Source: Syntrophomonadaceae bacterium (GTDB lineage: Bacteria > Bacillota > Dethiobacteria > DTU022 > UBA8154). Taken from it: 47,767 nucleotides of DNA. Positions within the stretch are counted from its first letter, which is position 1, and every line of letters starts with the position of its first letter. The notes beneath the pieces were generated by a model. That model saw only the letters and a program-made list of their open reading frames with translations. It ran no database searches and had not been told where the DNA came from. This document shows positions 1,240 to 9,147 of the stretch, piece by piece. A program made the translations under genes and the position numbers. Location: assembly GCA_003556225.1 (NCBI GenBank), contig PWRN01000055.1, positions 1 through 47,767 of the forward strand, written 5' to 3'.

Positions 1240-2391
1240 CTACATGGCGTTTTTGAATATGCCCTTCACGTCTGCAGCCTTGGCAACGACCGGGTTGGTG
1301 AAGCTGCAGGCATCTTTCATGGCGTTTTCCACCATGATGTCGAAGTCTTCCTCTTTCACGTCCAGTTCGGCCAGGCCCGCGGGGATGCGAATATCCATGG
1401 AAAGCTGGGTGATGGCATCCAGGGCTTTTTCCGCAGCGGCGCGAATGGAGAGGCCCTCTACCGGCTCGCCCATGGCGATAGCCATATCGACAAAGCGCTG
1501 CGGGTTGGAAATGAGGTTGAAGCGCTGCACGTGGGGCAGCAGGATGGCGTTGCAGACCCCGTGGGGCAGGTCATAGAAGCCGCCCAGCTGGTGGGCCATG
1601 GCGTGCACGTAACCCAGGCTGGCATTGTTGAAGGCCATCCCGGCCAGGAGCTGGGCGTAGGTCATGCCGTCCCGGGCTTCAAAGTTATCCCCGTTGGCCA
1701 CGGCCGTGCGCAGGTACTTGAAAATCAGCTCGATGGCCTTCAGGGCACAGGCATCGGTTACCGGGGTGGCAATGGTAGAAACATAGGCCTCCACGGCGTG
1801 GGTCAGCGCGTCCATGCCGGTGGCTGCTGTGAGGCCCGGGGGCATCTTCATCATGATCATGGGGTCGTTAACAGAAACCTGGGGCGTGGTTCTCCAGTCC
1901 ACGATAGCCATCTTCACCTTGGTATCCGTATTGGTGATAATACAGAAACGGGTGATCTCGCTGGCCGTTCCCGACGTGGTGTTCACGCAGATCATCGGGG
2001 GCATGGGTTTGGTGGATTGATTCACACCTTCAAAATCCCGGATGTGCCCGCCGTTACCGGCAACCAGGCCAACGCCCTTGGCGCAGTCGTGGGAACTGCC
2101 ACCGCCGACAGAGACGATCATGTCGCAATTTTCCTTCTTGTAGATGTCAAACCCTTCGTGGACGTTTAAATCCGTGGGGTTGGGCTGTGCCCCGGCATAC
2201 ATAACCGTTTCCAAACCCGCTGTTTTTAAATATCCTTCTACCTCACCGGGGATACCCACCTTGGGAAGATCGGGGTCGGTGACAATCAGCGCTTTTTTTC
2301 CGCCCAGATCGTTGGCAAGGTTACCTACCTCTTTCACACAACCCGCACCCATAAAGTTTACCGTTGGCATAAAAAACTGCATTACACTCAT
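1240..2391 (-). CDS. Iron-containing alcohol dehydrogenase (first copy)
   Basis: NAD(P)-dependent group III alcohol dehydrogenase of 383 residues, interconverting alcohols and aldehydes in the cytoplasm. Seen: the nucleotide-binding GGGSSHDCAKG near residue 97-106, GMDALTHAVEAY carrying Asp194 and His198, and the GYVHAMAHQ...LPHG region with His263 and His277, i.e. the full set of family metal ligands. The ATG at 2391 was chosen because AGGAGG lies 9 bases upstream; an in-frame ATG at 2466 has no comparable SD. Upstream is a sigma-54 promoter (2672-2687) with a leader of about 270 nt. The gene precedes the AOR gene on the same strand, so alcohol oxidation to aldehyde and aldehyde oxidation to acid (or the reverse, reducing acids to alcohols) are coupled. 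About the same length as the second ADH at 3475 but clearly diverged from it. Confidence 0.94.
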   Translation of the reverse strand: MSVMQFFMPTVNFMGAGCVKEVGNLANDLGGKKALIVTDPDLPKVGIPGEVEGYLKTAGLETVMYAGAQPNPTDLNVHEGFDIYKKENCDMIVSVGGGSSHDCAKGVGLVAGNGGHIRDFEGVNQSTKPMPPMICVNTTSGTASEITRFCIITNTDTKVKMAIVDWRTTPQVSVNDPMIMMKMPPGLTAATGMDALTHAVEAYVSTIATPVTDACALKAIELIFKYLRTAVANGDNFEARDGMTYAQLLAGMAFNNASLGYVHAMAHQLGGFYDLPHGVCNAILLPHVQRFNLISNPQRFVDMAIAMGEPVEGLSIRAAAEKALDAITQLSMDIRIPAGLAELDVKEEDFDIMVENAMKDACSFTNPVVAKAADVKGIFKNAM

Positions 2392-2763: not shown

Positions 2764-2918
2764 GACAGCATCCTTCCCCCTGTCTTTCCGTGGATCTACT
2801 CTCCGCGGCTGCATAGGCACGGCTTCCTGGAAAAGTTCGTGACTGCGGTTCCAGGGGTAACAAAATAATGTGACGAATGCCAAAAAATTGTTGCTTTCAA
2901 CGTGATTTTGTGCTACGA

Positions 2919-3061
2919 CTAAAAAGGCAGGTACCCTACGCCCATTAACCAGAATGCCGGCATCCATAAGCCCACAAAAACCCAGGTAATCAGAGACCAG
3001 GCCAGGGCTTTCGCCGGGAATTTGCCGTAGGCGTTAAGCCATCAAATATGGCGGGGGTCAT
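2919..3061 (-). pseudogene. Small one-span membrane protein gene, frameshifted
   Basis: From the ATG at 3061 the reading frame gives MTPAIFDG and then leaves frame, stopping after 23 residues. Restoring one base near 3037 continues as LNAYGKFPAK followed by a Trp-rich hydrophobic segment (about 25 residues) and a stop at 2919, making a 47-residue protein with one membrane span. A strong SD (GAGGAGGTG) precedes the ATG, and a perfect -24/-12 promoter ends 55 bp upstream. The signals are intact, so this is either a recent loss or a single-base sequence error. It resembles the short membrane subunits that accompany some transporters, but I do not recognise the family. Confidence 0.55.
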
Positions 3062-3115
3062 CTTGTCACCTCCTCGTGAAGCATTTTTTCTGGCTATGAT
3101 CTCGCTACCCTGTTG

Positions 3116-3132
3116 TGCAACATGTGTGCCAA
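3116..3132 (-). promoter_or_regulatory. Sigma-54 (-24/-12) promoter for the small membrane gene
   Basis: On the minus strand TTGGCACACATGTTGCA matches the consensus at every conserved position, with GG-N10-GC spacing. The predicted start near 3105 is about 44 nt ahead of the ATG at 3061, so the promoter, SD and start codon are properly ordered. Transcripts could run on into the ADH-AOR operon. Confidence 0.83.
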
Positions 3133-3155: not shown

Positions 3156-3385
3156 CCCTTTCAAGCTGCCATGACTTGTGCTAAGATGTAAGAGAAAACA
3201 GGGACTCATGGCTGCTTCAAGGTTTTGGCCGCCTTTGATAAATTTTCAGCTTCCCGTTATTTTCGCCTTCCCTGGTGTATACCGCGGCAACCGGATGACA
3301 AAAAATTGCCTTTAAGGAACATTTTTGCGCTGATCAGGCAAGTTTTTTGTCCTGGACGTCGGAAATGGCAGGATGTGGGTAAGAA

Positions 3386-3402
3386 TTGGTTTGCTTTTTG
3401 CA
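3386..3402 (+). promoter_or_regulatory. Sigma-54 (-24/-12) promoter for the second ADH
   Basis: TTGGTTTGCTTTTTGCA keeps the invariant GG and GC with exactly 10 bases between, and the TTGG and TTGCA blocks; only the CAC of the -24 box is lost. The start is predicted near 3413, about 62 nt before the ATG at 3475. It may drive the whole rightward set ADH-kinase-regulator-maturase. Confidence 0.7.
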
Positions 3403-3474: not shown

Positions 3475-4623
3475 ATGGAGATATTTAAGTTCATGACACC
3501 GGAAATCATTTTTGGTCCCGGAACCATGGCCCAGGTCGGGGAAAGCCTGGTGCGGCTGGGGGCAACCCGGGTCTTTCTCGTCAGCGATTGCGGCGTCCAG
3601 CAAGCACACTGGGTTGAAAAAGCTCTGAAATACCTGGATGAAGTCGGACTCACCTATGTGGTCTGGACCGGCATTACACCAAACCCCAAGGATTATGAAG
3701 TAGCCGAGGGGGCCAAGGAGTATCTCCAGGCCCAGTGTGACGCCGTTTTGGCGATCGGGGGAGGCAGCCCCATCGACGCCGCCAAGGGGATTGCCCTGGT
3801 TGCGACGAACGGGGGAAGAATCAACGACTACGAGGGCATCGATAAAGTTACCCGCCCTTTGCCGCCTATGGTCGCGGTTCCTTCCACGGCGGGCACCGGG
3901 GCGGAGGTGTCCCAGTTTTCCATCATCGTGGACAGCGGTTCAAAAGTGAAAATGACTATCATCTCCAAGTCCCTCATTCCCGATATTGCCATCATCGACC
4001 CCTATATCCTCACGACAAAGGATAAAAAGCTGACCGCCTGTACCGGGATGGATGCTCTCTCTCACGCCGTCGAGGCTTATGCCTCGCTGGCGGCCACGCC
4101 CCTGACGGATATCCACGCCTTGAGCGCCATTTCGCTCATCGGCAAATACCTTCCCGCTTCTGTCTCCAGTAACCAGAATCTCCGCGCCAAGCGCCAAATG
4201 GCCATGGCCAGCCTGAAGGCCGGGCTGGCCTTTTCCAACGCCATCCTGGGCGCCGTGCACGCCATGACCCACCCCCTGGGCGGCGAGCTGGACCTGCCCC
4301 ACGGCGAAGCCAATGCCATTCTCCTGCCTTACGTCATGGAGTTTAACCTGCCCTCCTGCATCAGCCGCTATGTTGATGTTGCGGAAGCCCTGGGAGAAAT
4401 AACCGGCGGTTTAAGTGAACGCGCCGCGGCTCTAAAAGCCATCCAGGCGGTTCGAAAACTTGCTTCCGACATTTGCATTCCAGAAAACCTTTCGGAAATG
4501 GGGCTGAAAAAGGAAGTCATTCCCTATCTCAGTCAATGCGCGATCAAAGACGCCTGCCTGATCACCAACCCCCGAAAAGCGTCCACGGAAGATATTGAAA
4601 AAATATACTACCGGGCCTACTAG
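3475..4623 (+). CDS. Iron-containing alcohol dehydrogenase (second copy)
   Basis: A second group III Fe-dependent alcohol dehydrogenase, 382 residues. Seen: GGGSPIDAAKG near residues 95-105 for nucleotide binding, GMDALSHAVEAY with Asp193 and His197, and VHAMTHPLGG...LPHG with His262 and His276, so all metal ligands are kept. Start ATG at 3475 with GAAAGGA about 8 bases upstream. It is transcribed divergently from the first ADH and has its own sigma-54 promoter at 3386-3402. The kinase gene follows 148 bp downstream on the same strand. Two diverged ADHs under one regulatory region suggest different alcohols, or one oxidative and one reductive role; the sequence does not say which. Confidence 0.94.
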   Translation: MEIFKFMTPEIIFGPGTMAQVGESLVRLGATRVFLVSDCGVQQAHWVEKALKYLDEVGLTYVVWTGITPNPKDYEVAEGAKEYLQAQCDAVLAIGGGSPIDAAKGIALVATNGGRINDYEGIDKVTRPLPPMVAVPSTAGTGAEVSQFSIIVDSGSKVKMTIISKSLIPDIAIIDPYILTTKDKKLTACTGMDALSHAVEAYASLAATPLTDIHALSAISLIGKYLPASVSSNQNLRAKRQMAMASLKAGLAFSNAILGAVHAMTHPLGGELDLPHGEANAILLPYVMEFNLPSCISRYVDVAEALGEITGGLSERAAALKAIQAVRKLASDICIPENLSEMGLKKEVIPYLSQCAIKDACLITNPRKASTEDIEKIYYRAY

Positions 4624-4771: not shown

Positions 4772-6358
4772 ATGTTGGAGAAATTGACCGGTGTTTACTC
4801 CTCGAAAAAGAGCTACTACGTTGAACTGAAGAAGCAGATCCAGGAAACAAAAAAACGCAATACCCAGCTGGAGATTCTCTTCAAGCTGGCCAAGAGCATG
4901 GATGTGGATATCGACCTGCCCGAAATTATGGACAGCATCGTGGATGAATTAAGTGAAATCCTGCCCTTTGATCACCTGGAACTGGTGGATTTCACCCGCG
5001 AAAACGGAGCACAGAACACCTTTTTTTGGAAACCCAATCATTCCTTGGCACGGCACAGCTCCTCACAAGACTTTGCCCAGGTGATCAAGATCCATCTCAA
5101 TGCCAAGAACAGCAACGTGGGAAAACTCCTGGTCTGCAATCATCAAGAAATGAACTACTCCGATACCGACCTGCTCTTCCTGGAGCAGCTGGCCGCACAG
5201 CTGTCCGTTTGCCTGCAAAACCTCAATCTTTACGAGGAAGCCATTCAGCGAAAAATCGAGTGGGAAGAAACCTTCCGGGCCGTGCAGGATCCCATTATAT
5301 TTATTGACCTGGATTACAACATCCGCCGCGTCAACGACTCGGTTCTAAACTGCTACCACCTGGAACTGGAAGAAATCGTTGGTCAAAAATGTTTCAGCTT
5401 TCTGCACAACGAGGAGGATGTCTGTAACCCCTGTCCTGTCCGGGAAGTTCTAAAAAAAGGAAAACCCTCCCAGCAGCAGATGGAAATGCGCAACGGGCGG
5501 ATCTTCGATTTTTCTTACTACCCCGTGTACAACAATAAAAACGAAATCTACGGCATTATTCAATACGGAAAAGATGTCACCAAAAAATTGGAAATGGAGG
5601 CCCACTGGCGAAACCTCTCCAAGCAGGTGGCCCTGGGGGAGATGGCCGCCCGGGTAGCCCACGAACTGAACAATCCCCTGACCGTTGTCCTGGGCAATAT
5701 CCAAATGTCTTTGTTGGATCTGACTGAAAATCACGAGGATTATAAAGCCCTCAGTGACGCTTTTAATTACGGCTTGCGCTGTCAAAAGATCGTGCACGAT
5801 CTGCTCACTTTTTCCCGGCACGATAAACATGTCATGGTGCCGCTGGATTTGCACTTTTTGCTCGATGAAAGCATGGATGCCACCCGTTTCCAGATCGATT
5901 ACCAGCAGCTCGACATCTCCAAGGAGTACTATCAGCACCTGCCGGTGATCCAGGCCAACCCCGACCAGCTTAAACAGGCTTTAATCAATATCCTCACCAA
6001 CGCCTGGGACGCCATGCAGCATACCCCTGAGAAAAGGCTGGCCATTCGAACGGGCCTAATCGACGAGAAAGTCTATATTACCATTGAAGATAACGGCTGC
6101 GGCATCCGCCCTGAGCACCACTTCAAGGTTTTCGACCCGTTTTTTACGACCAAGGAAGAGGGAACCGGCCTGGGACTCTCCATCAGCTATGGGATCATCA
6201 AAGCCCATGGCGGCGAGATCAGCCTGCGCAGCGAGGCGGGAAGCGGAAGCACCTTTCGCATCACCCTGCCGATCACACCGGAAGAACGAGAAAGAAACGT
6301 CCAGCTGCCAGGATCCCACAGCCAGGGCGATGTAAACATTTCGGAGGCGATGAAGTAA
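4772..6358 (+). CDS. Sensor histidine kinase (GAF-PAS-HisKA-HATPase)
   Basis: Two-component sensor of 528 residues with no membrane span, so a cytoplasmic sensor. Order: an N-terminal coiled-coil-like segment, a GAF domain (about 30-155), a PAS domain (about 160-270) containing a CNPCP cysteine pair, the HisKA dimer with phosphoacceptor His297 in ARVAHELNNPL, then HATPase with N box (NILTNAWDAM), G1 (DNGCGI) and G2 (GTGLGLSISYG). This is the NtrB-like layout that partners NtrC-type regulators. The next gene, 35 bp on, encodes exactly such a regulator. ATG at 4772 has GGAGG 10 bases upstream. The signal is unknown; the GAF/PAS pair and the CxxC in the PAS domain allow a redox or small-molecule input, and the neighbours point to an aldehyde, an alcohol or the redox state (inference). 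Confidence 0.93.
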   Translation: MLEKLTGVYSSKKSYYVELKKQIQETKKRNTQLEILFKLAKSMDVDIDLPEIMDSIVDELSEILPFDHLELVDFTRENGAQNTFFWKPNHSLARHSSSQDFAQVIKIHLNAKNSNVGKLLVCNHQEMNYSDTDLLFLEQLAAQLSVCLQNLNLYEEAIQRKIEWEETFRAVQDPIIFIDLDYNIRRVNDSVLNCYHLELEEIVGQKCFSFLHNEEDVCNPCPVREVLKKGKPSQQQMEMRNGRIFDFSYYPVYNNKNEIYGIIQYGKDVTKKLEMEAHWRNLSKQVALGEMAARVAHELNNPLTVVLGNIQMSLLDLTENHEDYKALSDAFNYGLRCQKIVHDLLTFSRHDKHVMVPLDLHFLLDESMDATRFQIDYQQLDISKEYYQHLPVIQANPDQLKQALINILTNAWDAMQHTPEKRLAIRTGLIDEKVYITIEDNGCGIRPEHHFKVFDPFFTTKEEGTGLGLSISYGIIKAHGGEISLRSEAGSGSTFRITLPITPEERERNVQLPGSHSQGDVNISEAMK

Positions 6359-6393
6359 TACGCGGCCAAATAACGCACTGGAGGCATGCCTTG

Positions 6394-7890
6394 ATGGTCG
6401 AGAAAAATGTTCTCGTCGTTGATGATGAAAAAGGCATCCGGGACTTCCTGGAAAGACTGCTACAACGAAAAGCGTACCGGGTATTCACCGCTGCCTCAGG
6501 CGAAGAAGCTTATGTTTTGATGGAAGATCAGCCCCTGGACCTGGCCCTCCTGGATTTAAAGCTGCCGGATACCGACGGCTTAACCCTGCTCAAACACCTC
6601 AAGGAAAAGCAGCCTTTCTGCCCGGCTATCATCATTACAGCCTACAGCACCATTCGCTCGGCAGTTGAAGCCATCCAGCTGGGGGCGTACGATTACCTGG
6701 ATAAACCCTTCACAGACATCCAAAACCTGTATGAAATTATCCACAAAGCGGTTAGCAGCAAAGAGTTAGAACAAACGACCGAACAAGATGAAGAGAGGTC
6801 CGCTGCAGCAGGATTTATCGTCGGCAAAAGCCAGGAAATGCGCCAGCTGAAACAAGTTGCCGATGTGATTTCACCCAAAGATATTACCGTCCTCATCCAG
6901 GGAGAAACAGGTACGGGCAAAGAAGTGCTGGCCCGGTATATCCATTCCATCAGCAAAAGGGCCGATAAACCTTTCATCGCCGTTAATTGCGGCGCATTTA
7001 CGGAAAGCCTCCTGGAAAGTGAGCTGTTCGGCCATGAAAAAGGCGCGTTTACAGGGGCGACCAACCTGCGGCAGGGGATCTTTGAAATTGCCAATGAAGG
7101 AACGCTGCTGCTGGACGAAATCAGCGAAGCCAGCCTGAATGTGCAGGTCAAACTCCTGCGGGTTTTAGAAACCGGGGAATACTACAGGGTAGGGGGCAAG
7201 GATTGCCTCTACTCCAATATTCGCATTATTGCCGCGACCAATGTGAACCTCGAAGAAGCGGTAAGCAGCGGAAACTTTCGCAAAGACCTGCTCTACCGAC
7301 TGGATGTGGCCCGCCTTAACCTGCCCCCGCTGCGGGAGCGCCTTGAAGATCTTCCCCGCCTGACGCATTTCTTCCTGGAAAAACACGCTTCCTCCCACGC
7401 CCAGGCGAACATATCCGAGCAGGCCCTGGCGCTGCTCAGGGCGTACCCCTGGCCGGGAAATATCCGCGAACTTTCCAACGTGATCGCCCACTCCCTGTTG
7501 ATGGCCAAAGGTCAGGAGATCAAGCCTTTTCACCTGCCGGAAAAGATCCTCTACCACAAGGACAAAAAAGCAGGGGCAGCAGGTTTTCCGGAGGTAACGG
7601 TGCGCATCCCAAACAAAGAAATAGGGGGAGACGGCCAGGACCTGGCTAATATCCTGGAATCGTTCCTGGAAAGGTTAAGCGCTTACCTGGTCGAGGAGTA
7701 TAAACACCGGGGAAAGATTAACCTCCCCGAAGTTTTGGACAGCATCAGGGCTTTTGAAGGACAGCTCGCCGTGAAAATCATTCGCGAAGTCATTGCCGAT
7801 ACCCTGGGCAACCGCCAAAGTGCGGCCCAAAAACTACATTTGAACACACGCAGCCTGCGTTACCTGTTAAAGGAAAAGAAAAAAAGTTAA
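6394..7890 (+). CDS. Sigma-54-dependent response regulator (NtrC family)
   Basis: Transcription activator of 498 residues. Order: receiver domain with phosphoacceptor Asp54 (LLDLKLPDTDG), an AAA+ sigma-54 interaction domain with Walker A GETGTGKE (170-177), the sigma-54 contact loop GAFTGA (217-222) and DEISEAS, then a linker of about 100 residues and a C-terminal Fis-type helix-turn-helix (NRQSAAQKLHLNTRSLRYLL). It couples ATP hydrolysis to open-complex formation at -24/-12 promoters. The ATG at 6394 has GGAGG 9 bases upstream; a TTG at 6391 is the alternative. It probably receives phosphate from the kinase just upstream. The three -24/-12 promoters in the 2392-3474 gap are the likely targets. 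Confidence 0.95.
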   Translation: MVEKNVLVVDDEKGIRDFLERLLQRKAYRVFTAASGEEAYVLMEDQPLDLALLDLKLPDTDGLTLLKHLKEKQPFCPAIIITAYSTIRSAVEAIQLGAYDYLDKPFTDIQNLYEIIHKAVSSKELEQTTEQDEERSAAAGFIVGKSQEMRQLKQVADVISPKDITVLIQGETGTGKEVLARYIHSISKRADKPFIAVNCGAFTESLLESELFGHEKGAFTGATNLRQGIFEIANEGTLLLDEISEASLNVQVKLLRVLETGEYYRVGGKDCLYSNIRIIAATNVNLEEAVSSGNFRKDLLYRLDVARLNLPPLRERLEDLPRLTHFFLEKHASSHAQANISEQALALLRAYPWPGNIRELSNVIAHSLLMAKGQEIKPFHLPEKILYHKDKKAGAAGFPEVTVRIPNKEIGGDGQDLANILESFLERLSAYLVEEYKHRGKINLPEVLDSIRAFEGQLAVKIIREVIADTLGNRQSAAQKLHLNTRSLRYLLKEKKKS

Positions 7891-7911: not shown

Positions 7912-9147
7912 TTGAAGACGGTTCGCACGGAGATGCCGTGGAAAAAGGGCGCAACAAGCGTGTGCGACCCGGATAAACCGTACGTTGTCCTGGAGCAGGA
8001 AAATGAAACCATCCTGTTGAAACGCCAACCGGACCTGAAAAAGCTGTACCTGGAAGTTACATCTAGATGCAACCTGGAATGCCTTTCTTGCGTGCGCAAG
8101 CACTGGACCGAAACCGCGCTGCAGGAGATGGATATGGACCTGGTGCGCCAAATTGCAGCGCAAAGCAAGGAACTTCCCCATCTTAACCGTATCCACCTGG
8201 GCGGGTTCGGAGAGCCGCTATCCCACCCGCATATCGTGGAGATCGTCAACATCTTCACTGACAACGGATTGAGGGTTTCCATGAGCACAAATGGCACCCT
8301 GCTTTACCCTGAACTCTCCGCAAGGCTTATCCGGGCGGGCCTGGAACACGTGATCGTCTCCGTTGACAGCACGGAAAAAGAGCTGTTTGAGTCCCTTCGG
8401 GTAAAAGGGGAATTGCACCAGGTCCTGCAAAACATCGACCAGCTTCAGCGCAACAAAAAACGCCTGGGCTTTCATAACCCCAGGCTGGGACTGGAATTTG
8501 TGATGATGCGCAGCAATGCCCACCAGGTGAAAGAACTTCCCTCGCTGGCGAAAGAACTGGGCGCAACATCCGTGTTGTTAACCAACCTGCTGGCCCACTC
8601 CCCGGAAATGTACCGGGAAGTGCTCTACGAGCAGCCCGGCCAGGATCGCCTGATTAAAGGAGACGTTTTGGCGCCGCCAGCCTGGGATAAACAGCCCTTA
8701 ATGCATGTTTTCCCTTCCCGCAGGACCTGGCCTGTCGTGGCAGAGGATTGGATTCTCTGGGCAACCATGACCCTGCCTCGCATGTACTGGAGCAGCGAAC
8801 GAAAGTGCAGCTTTATCGACGGGCAGGCAGCCGTGATCCGTGCTGATGGAAAAGTCAGCCCCTGTTATGCCCTTCTCCGCTCCCACCCTTACCTCTTGGA
8901 TAACCGCCAAAAACACGTGGAAGCATACCTGGTCGGCGACATCAGGGAACAACCCCTGCTTGATATCTGGACGGCGTCGGAGTATCTCAAGTTTCGTTAC
9001 ACCGTCCGCAACTACAACTTTCCCTCCTGCATGGACTGCCAGGTGAATAAATACTGTGAATACGCGCTCTCCAACGATGACTGCTGGGGCAACAGTCCAT
9101 CCTGCGCCGACTGTCTCTACTCCCAGGGGATTGTGCGCTGTCCTTGA
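7912..9147 (+). CDS. Radical SAM maturase for tungsten-cofactor oxidoreductase
   Basis: Radical SAM protein of 411 residues. Seen: the cluster motif Cys53-x3-Cys57-x2-Cys60 in VTSRCNLECLSC, a GGFGEP loop after it, and a Cys-rich C-terminal SPASM-like part ending in DCWGNSPSCADCLYSQGIVRCP-like text split over 9077-9144. This C-terminal pattern is what I know from the family named tungsten cofactor oxidoreductase radical SAM maturase, which sits beside AOR-type genes. The AOR gene 7 kb away fits. The chemistry of these maturases is not established. Start is a TTG at 7912 with GGGGGTG upstream, 21 bp after the regulator gene, so the genes are most likely cotranscribed. Confidence 0.85.
   Translation: MKTVRTEMPWKKGATSVCDPDKPYVVLEQENETILLKRQPDLKKLYLEVTSRCNLECLSCVRKHWTETALQEMDMDLVRQIAAQSKELPHLNRIHLGGFGEPLSHPHIVEIVNIFTDNGLRVSMSTNGTLLYPELSARLIRAGLEHVIVSVDSTEKELFESLRVKGELHQVLQNIDQLQRNKKRLGFHNPRLGLEFVMMRSNAHQVKELPSLAKELGATSVLLTNLLAHSPEMYREVLYEQPGQDRLIKGDVLAPPAWDKQPLMHVFPSRRTWPVVAEDWILWATMTLPRMYWSSERKCSFIDGQAAVIRADGKVSPCYALLRSHPYLLDNRQKHVEAYLVGDIREQPLLDIWTASEYLKFRYTVRNYNFPSCMDCQVNKYCEYALSNDDCWGNSPSCADCLYSQGIVRCP

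Follow-up and report, generated by a model that had tools for sequence, protein, structure and literature searches.

Two reports on Desulfofundulus kuznetsovii (PMC5770442, PMC10907483) contain passages describing adjoining genes for an alcohol dehydrogenase (ADH) and an AOR that are abundant on methanol and ethanol; an operon for a methanol methyltransferase is present as well in strain 17T (PMC5770442, PMC10907483). An aquaporin-family gene is named within the altered methyltransferase operon of strain TPOSR (PMC10907483). Literature searches found no report of a UreI-like channel linked to methanol or alcohol clusters, and nothing relevant on sigma-54 in connection with AOR-ADH. Dedicated alcohol channels are not known to have been described in the methanol and alcohol clusters of anaerobes; if the relatives described below pass alcohols, they would be such channels.

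The locus considered here lies in a 47,767-nucleotide stretch of DNA (the window) from a Syntrophomonadaceae bacterium, where a broken gene sits behind an intact-looking promoter inside an alcohol-oxidation gene cluster. A sequence-only reading had taken this gene for a 47-residue, single-span membrane protein disrupted by one base. Homologues indicate that it is the remnant of an AmiS/UreI-type gene, and not a member of that family as it stands.

The gene cluster and its sigma-54 sites

The features of the cluster are collected in Table 1. Promoter 1, described as perfect in the sequence-only reading, is indeed an exact TGGCAC-N5-TTGCW with the -24/-12 consensus at the correct spacing, its position is kept in the syntenic genome G017, and the Shine-Dalgarno sequence and ATG, also said to be in good order, are both present. 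The window has 2 sites of the form TGGCAY-N5-TTGCW versus 0.20 expected (at least two were found in 2 of 100 shuffles), and exact TGGCAC sites number 5 in the 1.81-Mb genome, with 0 for the pattern read backwards. The second exact site, omitted by that reading, is on the same strand as promoter 1. RpoN (PF04552) is encoded in the same genome (G000), and an NtrC-type activator is encoded within the cluster itself.

Table 1. Features of the window around the broken channel gene
Feature	Position	Strand	Basis
AOR gene, 5' part, cut by contig end	1..983	minus	NCBIfam PRK09849, E 5e-31, weak, under cut-off; 57% to AORs of G193, G348
Iron-containing alcohol dehydrogenase (ADH)	1240..2391	minus	sequence/profile match
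Second exact sigma-54 site, assigned to ADH	2687-2672	minus	same place as in ADH orthologues
Retained 3' end of channel gene: 40 codons (WLNAYGKFP...LPF) + TAG	3041-2919	minus	homologue alignment
Deletion-join region	3046-3042	minus	in-frame TGA directly before W130; end points approximate
Retained 5' end of channel gene: ATG + four codons (MTPAI)	3061-3047	minus	resembles MTTAI of relatives
Shine-Dalgarno AGGAGG	3074-3069	minus	read from sequence
Sigma-54 (-24/-12) site, promoter 1	3131-3116	minus	TGGCACACATGTTGCA, predicted
ErcA-like iron-containing alcohol dehydrogenase	3475..4623	plus	NF041833, 501.7 bits vs cut-off 550
PAS histidine kinase	4772..6358	plus	profile match
NtrC-type sigma-54-dependent response regulator	6391..7890	plus	profile match
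Radical SAM/SPASM protein	7912..9147	plus	nearest TIGR04317 (tungsten-oxidoreductase maturase), 370.4 bits vs cut-off 380

About 50 nt upstream of promoter 1, CTTACATCTTAGCA (3176-3194, minus strand) is common to the window and G017 and is possibly an activator binding site. A weaker sigma-54-like site, TGGTTTGCTTTTTGCA, precedes the ErcA-like gene (3387-3402, plus strand), with loose sites of this type near chance in number (8 vs 5.4 expected).

Probable two ends of a UreI-like gene

The open reading frame that starts at ATG 3061 has 23 codons (2990-3061, minus strand), and a peptide of 39 residues, LNAYGKFP...LPF (LNAYGKFPAKALAWSLITWVFVGLWMPAFWLMGVGYLPF), lies in another frame and is followed by a stop, in agreement with the frame break that had been noted earlier. 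The sequence-only reading was to be given up if the present sequence were confirmed and the restored peptide proved to be without homologues; the downstream peptide has clear homologues, and half of that ground therefore falls away. Own genome counted, the peptide matched in 17 of 60 genomes at E <= 1. Strong matches besides its own were in G002, G003, G005 and G013 (E 7.5e-16 to 3e-12, all 39 residues aligned at 64-74% identity), where the piece forms the C-terminal end of a longer reading frame; the remaining matches among the 60 genomes (E 0.007 or weaker) were set aside as chance. Further copies came from a scan of named genomes, with seven loci in a Desulfovibrio sp. bin, a Dethiobacter sp. 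bin, an uncultured Firmicutes, two Deltaproteobacteria bins and a Syntrophomonadaceae (two contigs), and a scan of the phylum gave a match in 3 of 398 genomes, again with the window's own counted. Channel genes were found in one of four genomes of the class of G193 and one of ten of the order of G348, in each case that genome itself, and searches of plasmids gave no match.

The eight other genomes with the channel are thus G002 (contig as L075), G013 (L076), G005 (L077), G003 (L080 and L081, split), those of L078 and L079, G193 and G348, and the full-length proteins have 169 or 176 residues. Six of these proteins (G002, G013, G005, L079, G348 and G193) were scanned at full length against PF02293 (AmiS_UreI), and all six passed the cut-off, that of G193 narrowly, at 28.1 bits against 25, and not reported at a stricter limit. 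The split G003 copy had no match at E <= 0.01, nor did the 39-residue remnant on its own match the profile.

When four full-length relatives were compared with the window by tblastn, 3041-2922 was 65-80% identical, gap-free, to the C-terminal 40 codons of the channel, and all other matching pieces in the window had E of 0.5 or worse. Across the eight genomes the match spans 40 of 40 codons in every case, with 26-32 of 40 identical; the best match (32/40) is the G193 copy, which adjoins ErcA-HK-RR genes like those of the window. Homology on this side begins at W130, directly behind the in-frame TGA, which places about codons 6-129 in the missing part and the join out of frame. About 123 codons and five of the six helices are gone, and of the helices just the sixth, in codons 130-169, has been retained; to fix the exact end points of the deletion, the ancestral sequence would be needed. 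At the other end, 4 of the 14414 positions in the window's long open reading frames carry the pattern T.AI, so the N-terminal match, which consists of five codons, one being the start, is suggestive and not proof. The start codon context and MT.AI are at the right distance from promoter 1, which favours this reading. Together the two pieces are very probably the two ends of one UreI-like gene.

That both frames are open, and that a frame change between them would yield 47 codons, is what favours a gene for a 47-residue single-span membrane protein hit by one base, through a sequencing error or a very recent mutation. Intact homologues of 47 residues were not found, however; in the strong homologues the match is to the C-terminus of a longer protein, none stops at 47 residues, and the piece extends upstream into proteins of 169-176 residues for which six helices are modelled, all of which makes the one-base explanation extremely improbable. 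The homologues place the pieces at the ends of a 169-codon gene with some 370 bp missing. The earlier suggestion that a real component had been hidden by an error, or recently lost, holds as to the component, which is either lost or hidden by assembly, but not as to the lesion, which is not one base. A false small-protein gene is thereby removed, and the case illustrates that where one added base would open a frame, the actual lesion may be a large deletion within a gene.

Origin of the deletion and tolerance of the loss

The remnant is an internal deletion, real or artefactual, of a genuine but dispensable accessory. More probably than not (about 0.65), the organism itself carries the deletion, as opposed to its having arisen in assembly. 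A sigma-54-controlled gene for a 169-residue, six-helix channel of AmiS/UreI type would have lost some 123 codons from its middle, with the join out of frame; promoter 1 would still work, and its message would encode just a 23-residue peptide, so that no channel would be made. The loss of the middle is likely to have been recent.

It is rather unlikely that the channel gene is intact in the organism and lost its middle only when the metagenome-type bin was assembled. This would agree with the promoter, Shine-Dalgarno sequence, start and 40-codon end, all of which appear unspoiled, and with gaps or internal deletions at contigs of the channel gene or cluster in G193 and G005 as well, which could point to assembly. 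The occurrence in G193 of deleted and intact forms with the same flanks means that such forms arise in bins. Against assembly, the join in the window is inside a 47.8-kb contig and not at a contig end, and the syntenic G017 is entirely without the gene, so real loss does happen. No intact paralogue was found in the window's own genome bin (PF02293 had no match at E <= 10, and profile A3 found the remnant alone), nor was MtaB; with the bin at 90.6% completeness and divided among 108 contigs, an intact copy may have escaped detection, and absence is not proof.

The forms seen in G193 may be described separately. At a contig end (L088 5468-5585), the upstream region runs straight into the gene at about codon 97, and L086 1-593 has an intact gene with the same flanks as L088 (108 and 112 nt identical). 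The L088 form is either an assembly chimera or another case of internal deletion.

The divergent ADH/ErcA pair of the window recurs in G017, with ADH 90% identical, and the G017 sigma-54 sites align to both sites of the window, the counterpart of promoter 1 being TGGCATACAAATTGCT. There is no trace of the channel at this locus or in the G017 genome as a whole (88% complete), and sequence matching the window resumes just after the remnant's stop codon, in a conserved stretch that includes ACAATTTTTTGGCA (2878-2891, minus strand). With its promoters present and the channel gene absent, G017 indicates that channel loss is tolerated. Upstream of ADH, the pattern TGGYAYN5TTGC is found at 27 of 31 loci, i.e., the window, G017 and 29 further loci (L046-L074, those of the ADH matches for which a locus was available). 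Of these 29 from other genomes, 25 have the site within the upstream stretch examined (up to 900 nt), where 0.105 would be expected by mononucleotide shuffle, and a chance match at the second exact site of the window is thus ruled out. No channel match was found within about 1.5 kb on each side in the other 30 ADH loci, and since the channel is not adjacent in the 29 loci beyond the window and G017, it is not a standard part of the ADH locus. The genome G001, of the same genus as the window and 79% complete, gave no match for ADH. G193 and G348 are among the 29; their ADH contigs are without the channel, the channel genes being on other contigs.

The same comparison bears on an alternative in which the channel remnant is of no consequence and promoter 1 has become an additional promoter, in tandem, for ADH-AOR; this is unlikely but compatible with a deletion. 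The aligned sigma-54 site in G017, at the place of promoter 1 and without a channel gene, would fit such a role, as would the stretch common to both loci after the remnant and the failure to find a convincing terminator in between (one terminator-like site vs 1.6 expected). Two sites, on the other hand, occur at just 2 of the 31 ADH loci, the window and G017.

By codon position, the remnant differs from G193 at 7, 6 and 21 sites, and the intact genes of G193 and G348 differ from each other at 9, 4 and 24; differences in the remnant are thus mainly at third positions, as between intact genes. Half of simulated sequences would still be free of stops after as many as 15 random substitutions, and 40 codons are too few for a firm statement on selection or on the age of the loss. 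The low ratio of amino-acid-changing differences in these codons, together with the intact Shine-Dalgarno sequence and ATG, might speak for the 23-residue frame or the 40-codon end being a still functional small peptide. Yet the ATG is in a different frame from the 40 codons, which also come behind a stop, and the relatives have no short form apart from the contig-end case of G193, leaving a functional peptide highly improbable.

Intact relatives and comparison with known systems

Genes of methanol:corrinoid methyltransferase clusters accompany the channel in six of the eight genomes. MtaB, MtaC, CobW and RACo occur with it in G002, G013, L078, L079 and, over two contigs, G003, and most MtaB-MtaC clusters with the channel also have a URO-D-family protein (labelled MtaA-like here); in G005, RACo and the MtaA-like protein are represented just by pieces, on a 3-kb contig. 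Several of these clusters are preceded by sigma-54-like sites (L076 4894, L078/L079 5691). The channels within MtaB-MtaC-CobW-RACo clusters (L075 5638-6144, L076 10001-10507, L078 and L079 10001-10528) are candidate methanol channels, judging by their neighbours. Among these contigs, that of G013 has MtaB divided between two overlapping frames (L076 5078-6456), by a frameshift or a sequencing error. In G005, L077 464-1174 has a sigma-54-like site identical to that at L076 4894; mid-RACo pieces in two frames come within 200 nt after it, and MtaB, MtaC and CobW are absent from this contig; it is a rearranged or decayed cluster, or an assembly fault.

AOR genes are near the channel in two of the eight genomes. 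In G193 the channel is tail to tail with RR-HK-ErcA, AOR lies upstream according to an overlapping contig, and no sigma-54 site of standard spacing was found in front of the channel. In G348 the channel is 87 nt behind a sigma-54 site and its neighbours are AOR, AIR-carboxylase-domain, creatininase-family and acetamidase/formamidase-family proteins; the creatininase-family and acetamidase/formamidase-family proteins would be in keeping with a channel for amides. The intact protein of the window would have passed a small uncharged solute for the neighbouring enzymes, the likeliest candidates being amides and the alcohols methanol and ethanol, and for the intact relatives the gene context suggests alcohol transport. 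As an accessory of sigma-54 alcohol/C1 modules, the channel gene is genuine but rare. Tentatively, the intact relatives may form a UreI-type subfamily that carries methanol or ethanol instead of urea and is co-induced through sigma-54 with methyltransferase clusters or ADH-AOR-ErcA, the window holding the scar of a dispensable copy. The comparison also brings out a UreI-like group that is rare and is associated with the methanol and alcohol clusters of anaerobes, and this association with alcohol/C1 modules holds more interest than the lesion itself.

The fold of the intact protein was modelled with AlphaFold2 from the L075 protein and four relatives (pTM 0.71 and mean pLDDT 78.1, with values as low as 46 for other models of the run), giving six long helical segments of which the first is kinked. 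The best PDB matches of the model are Helicobacter pylori UreI, 6nsj (Z 18.5, rmsd 2.8, 164 residues aligned) and 3ux4 (Z 18.0), followed by a designed six-helix barrel and SatP channels (Z 16.0-16.6); a sequence-profile search of the PDB gave none at E <= 1. With SatP and the designed barrel this close, the fold alone does not decide between UreI and SatP, and the Pfam result does.

In comparison with described systems, the window resembles D. kuznetsovii in having ADH and AOR genes side by side, and differs in its UreI-type remnant, UreI having 0 occurrences in PMC10907483. The SatP acetate/succinate channels share the six-helix fold (Z 16.0-16.3), whereas the scanned proteins had no reported SatP match in Pfam, PF02293 being reported instead. 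With H. pylori UreI, the relatives scanned at full length (6 of 6) share the Pfam family, by its cut-off, and the six-helix fold of the L075 model, but are only 17-19% identical in structural alignments. Unlike the AmiS/UreI family as described, the relatives sit in methanol or alcohol gene clusters, and the window copy keeps just the last of the six helices.
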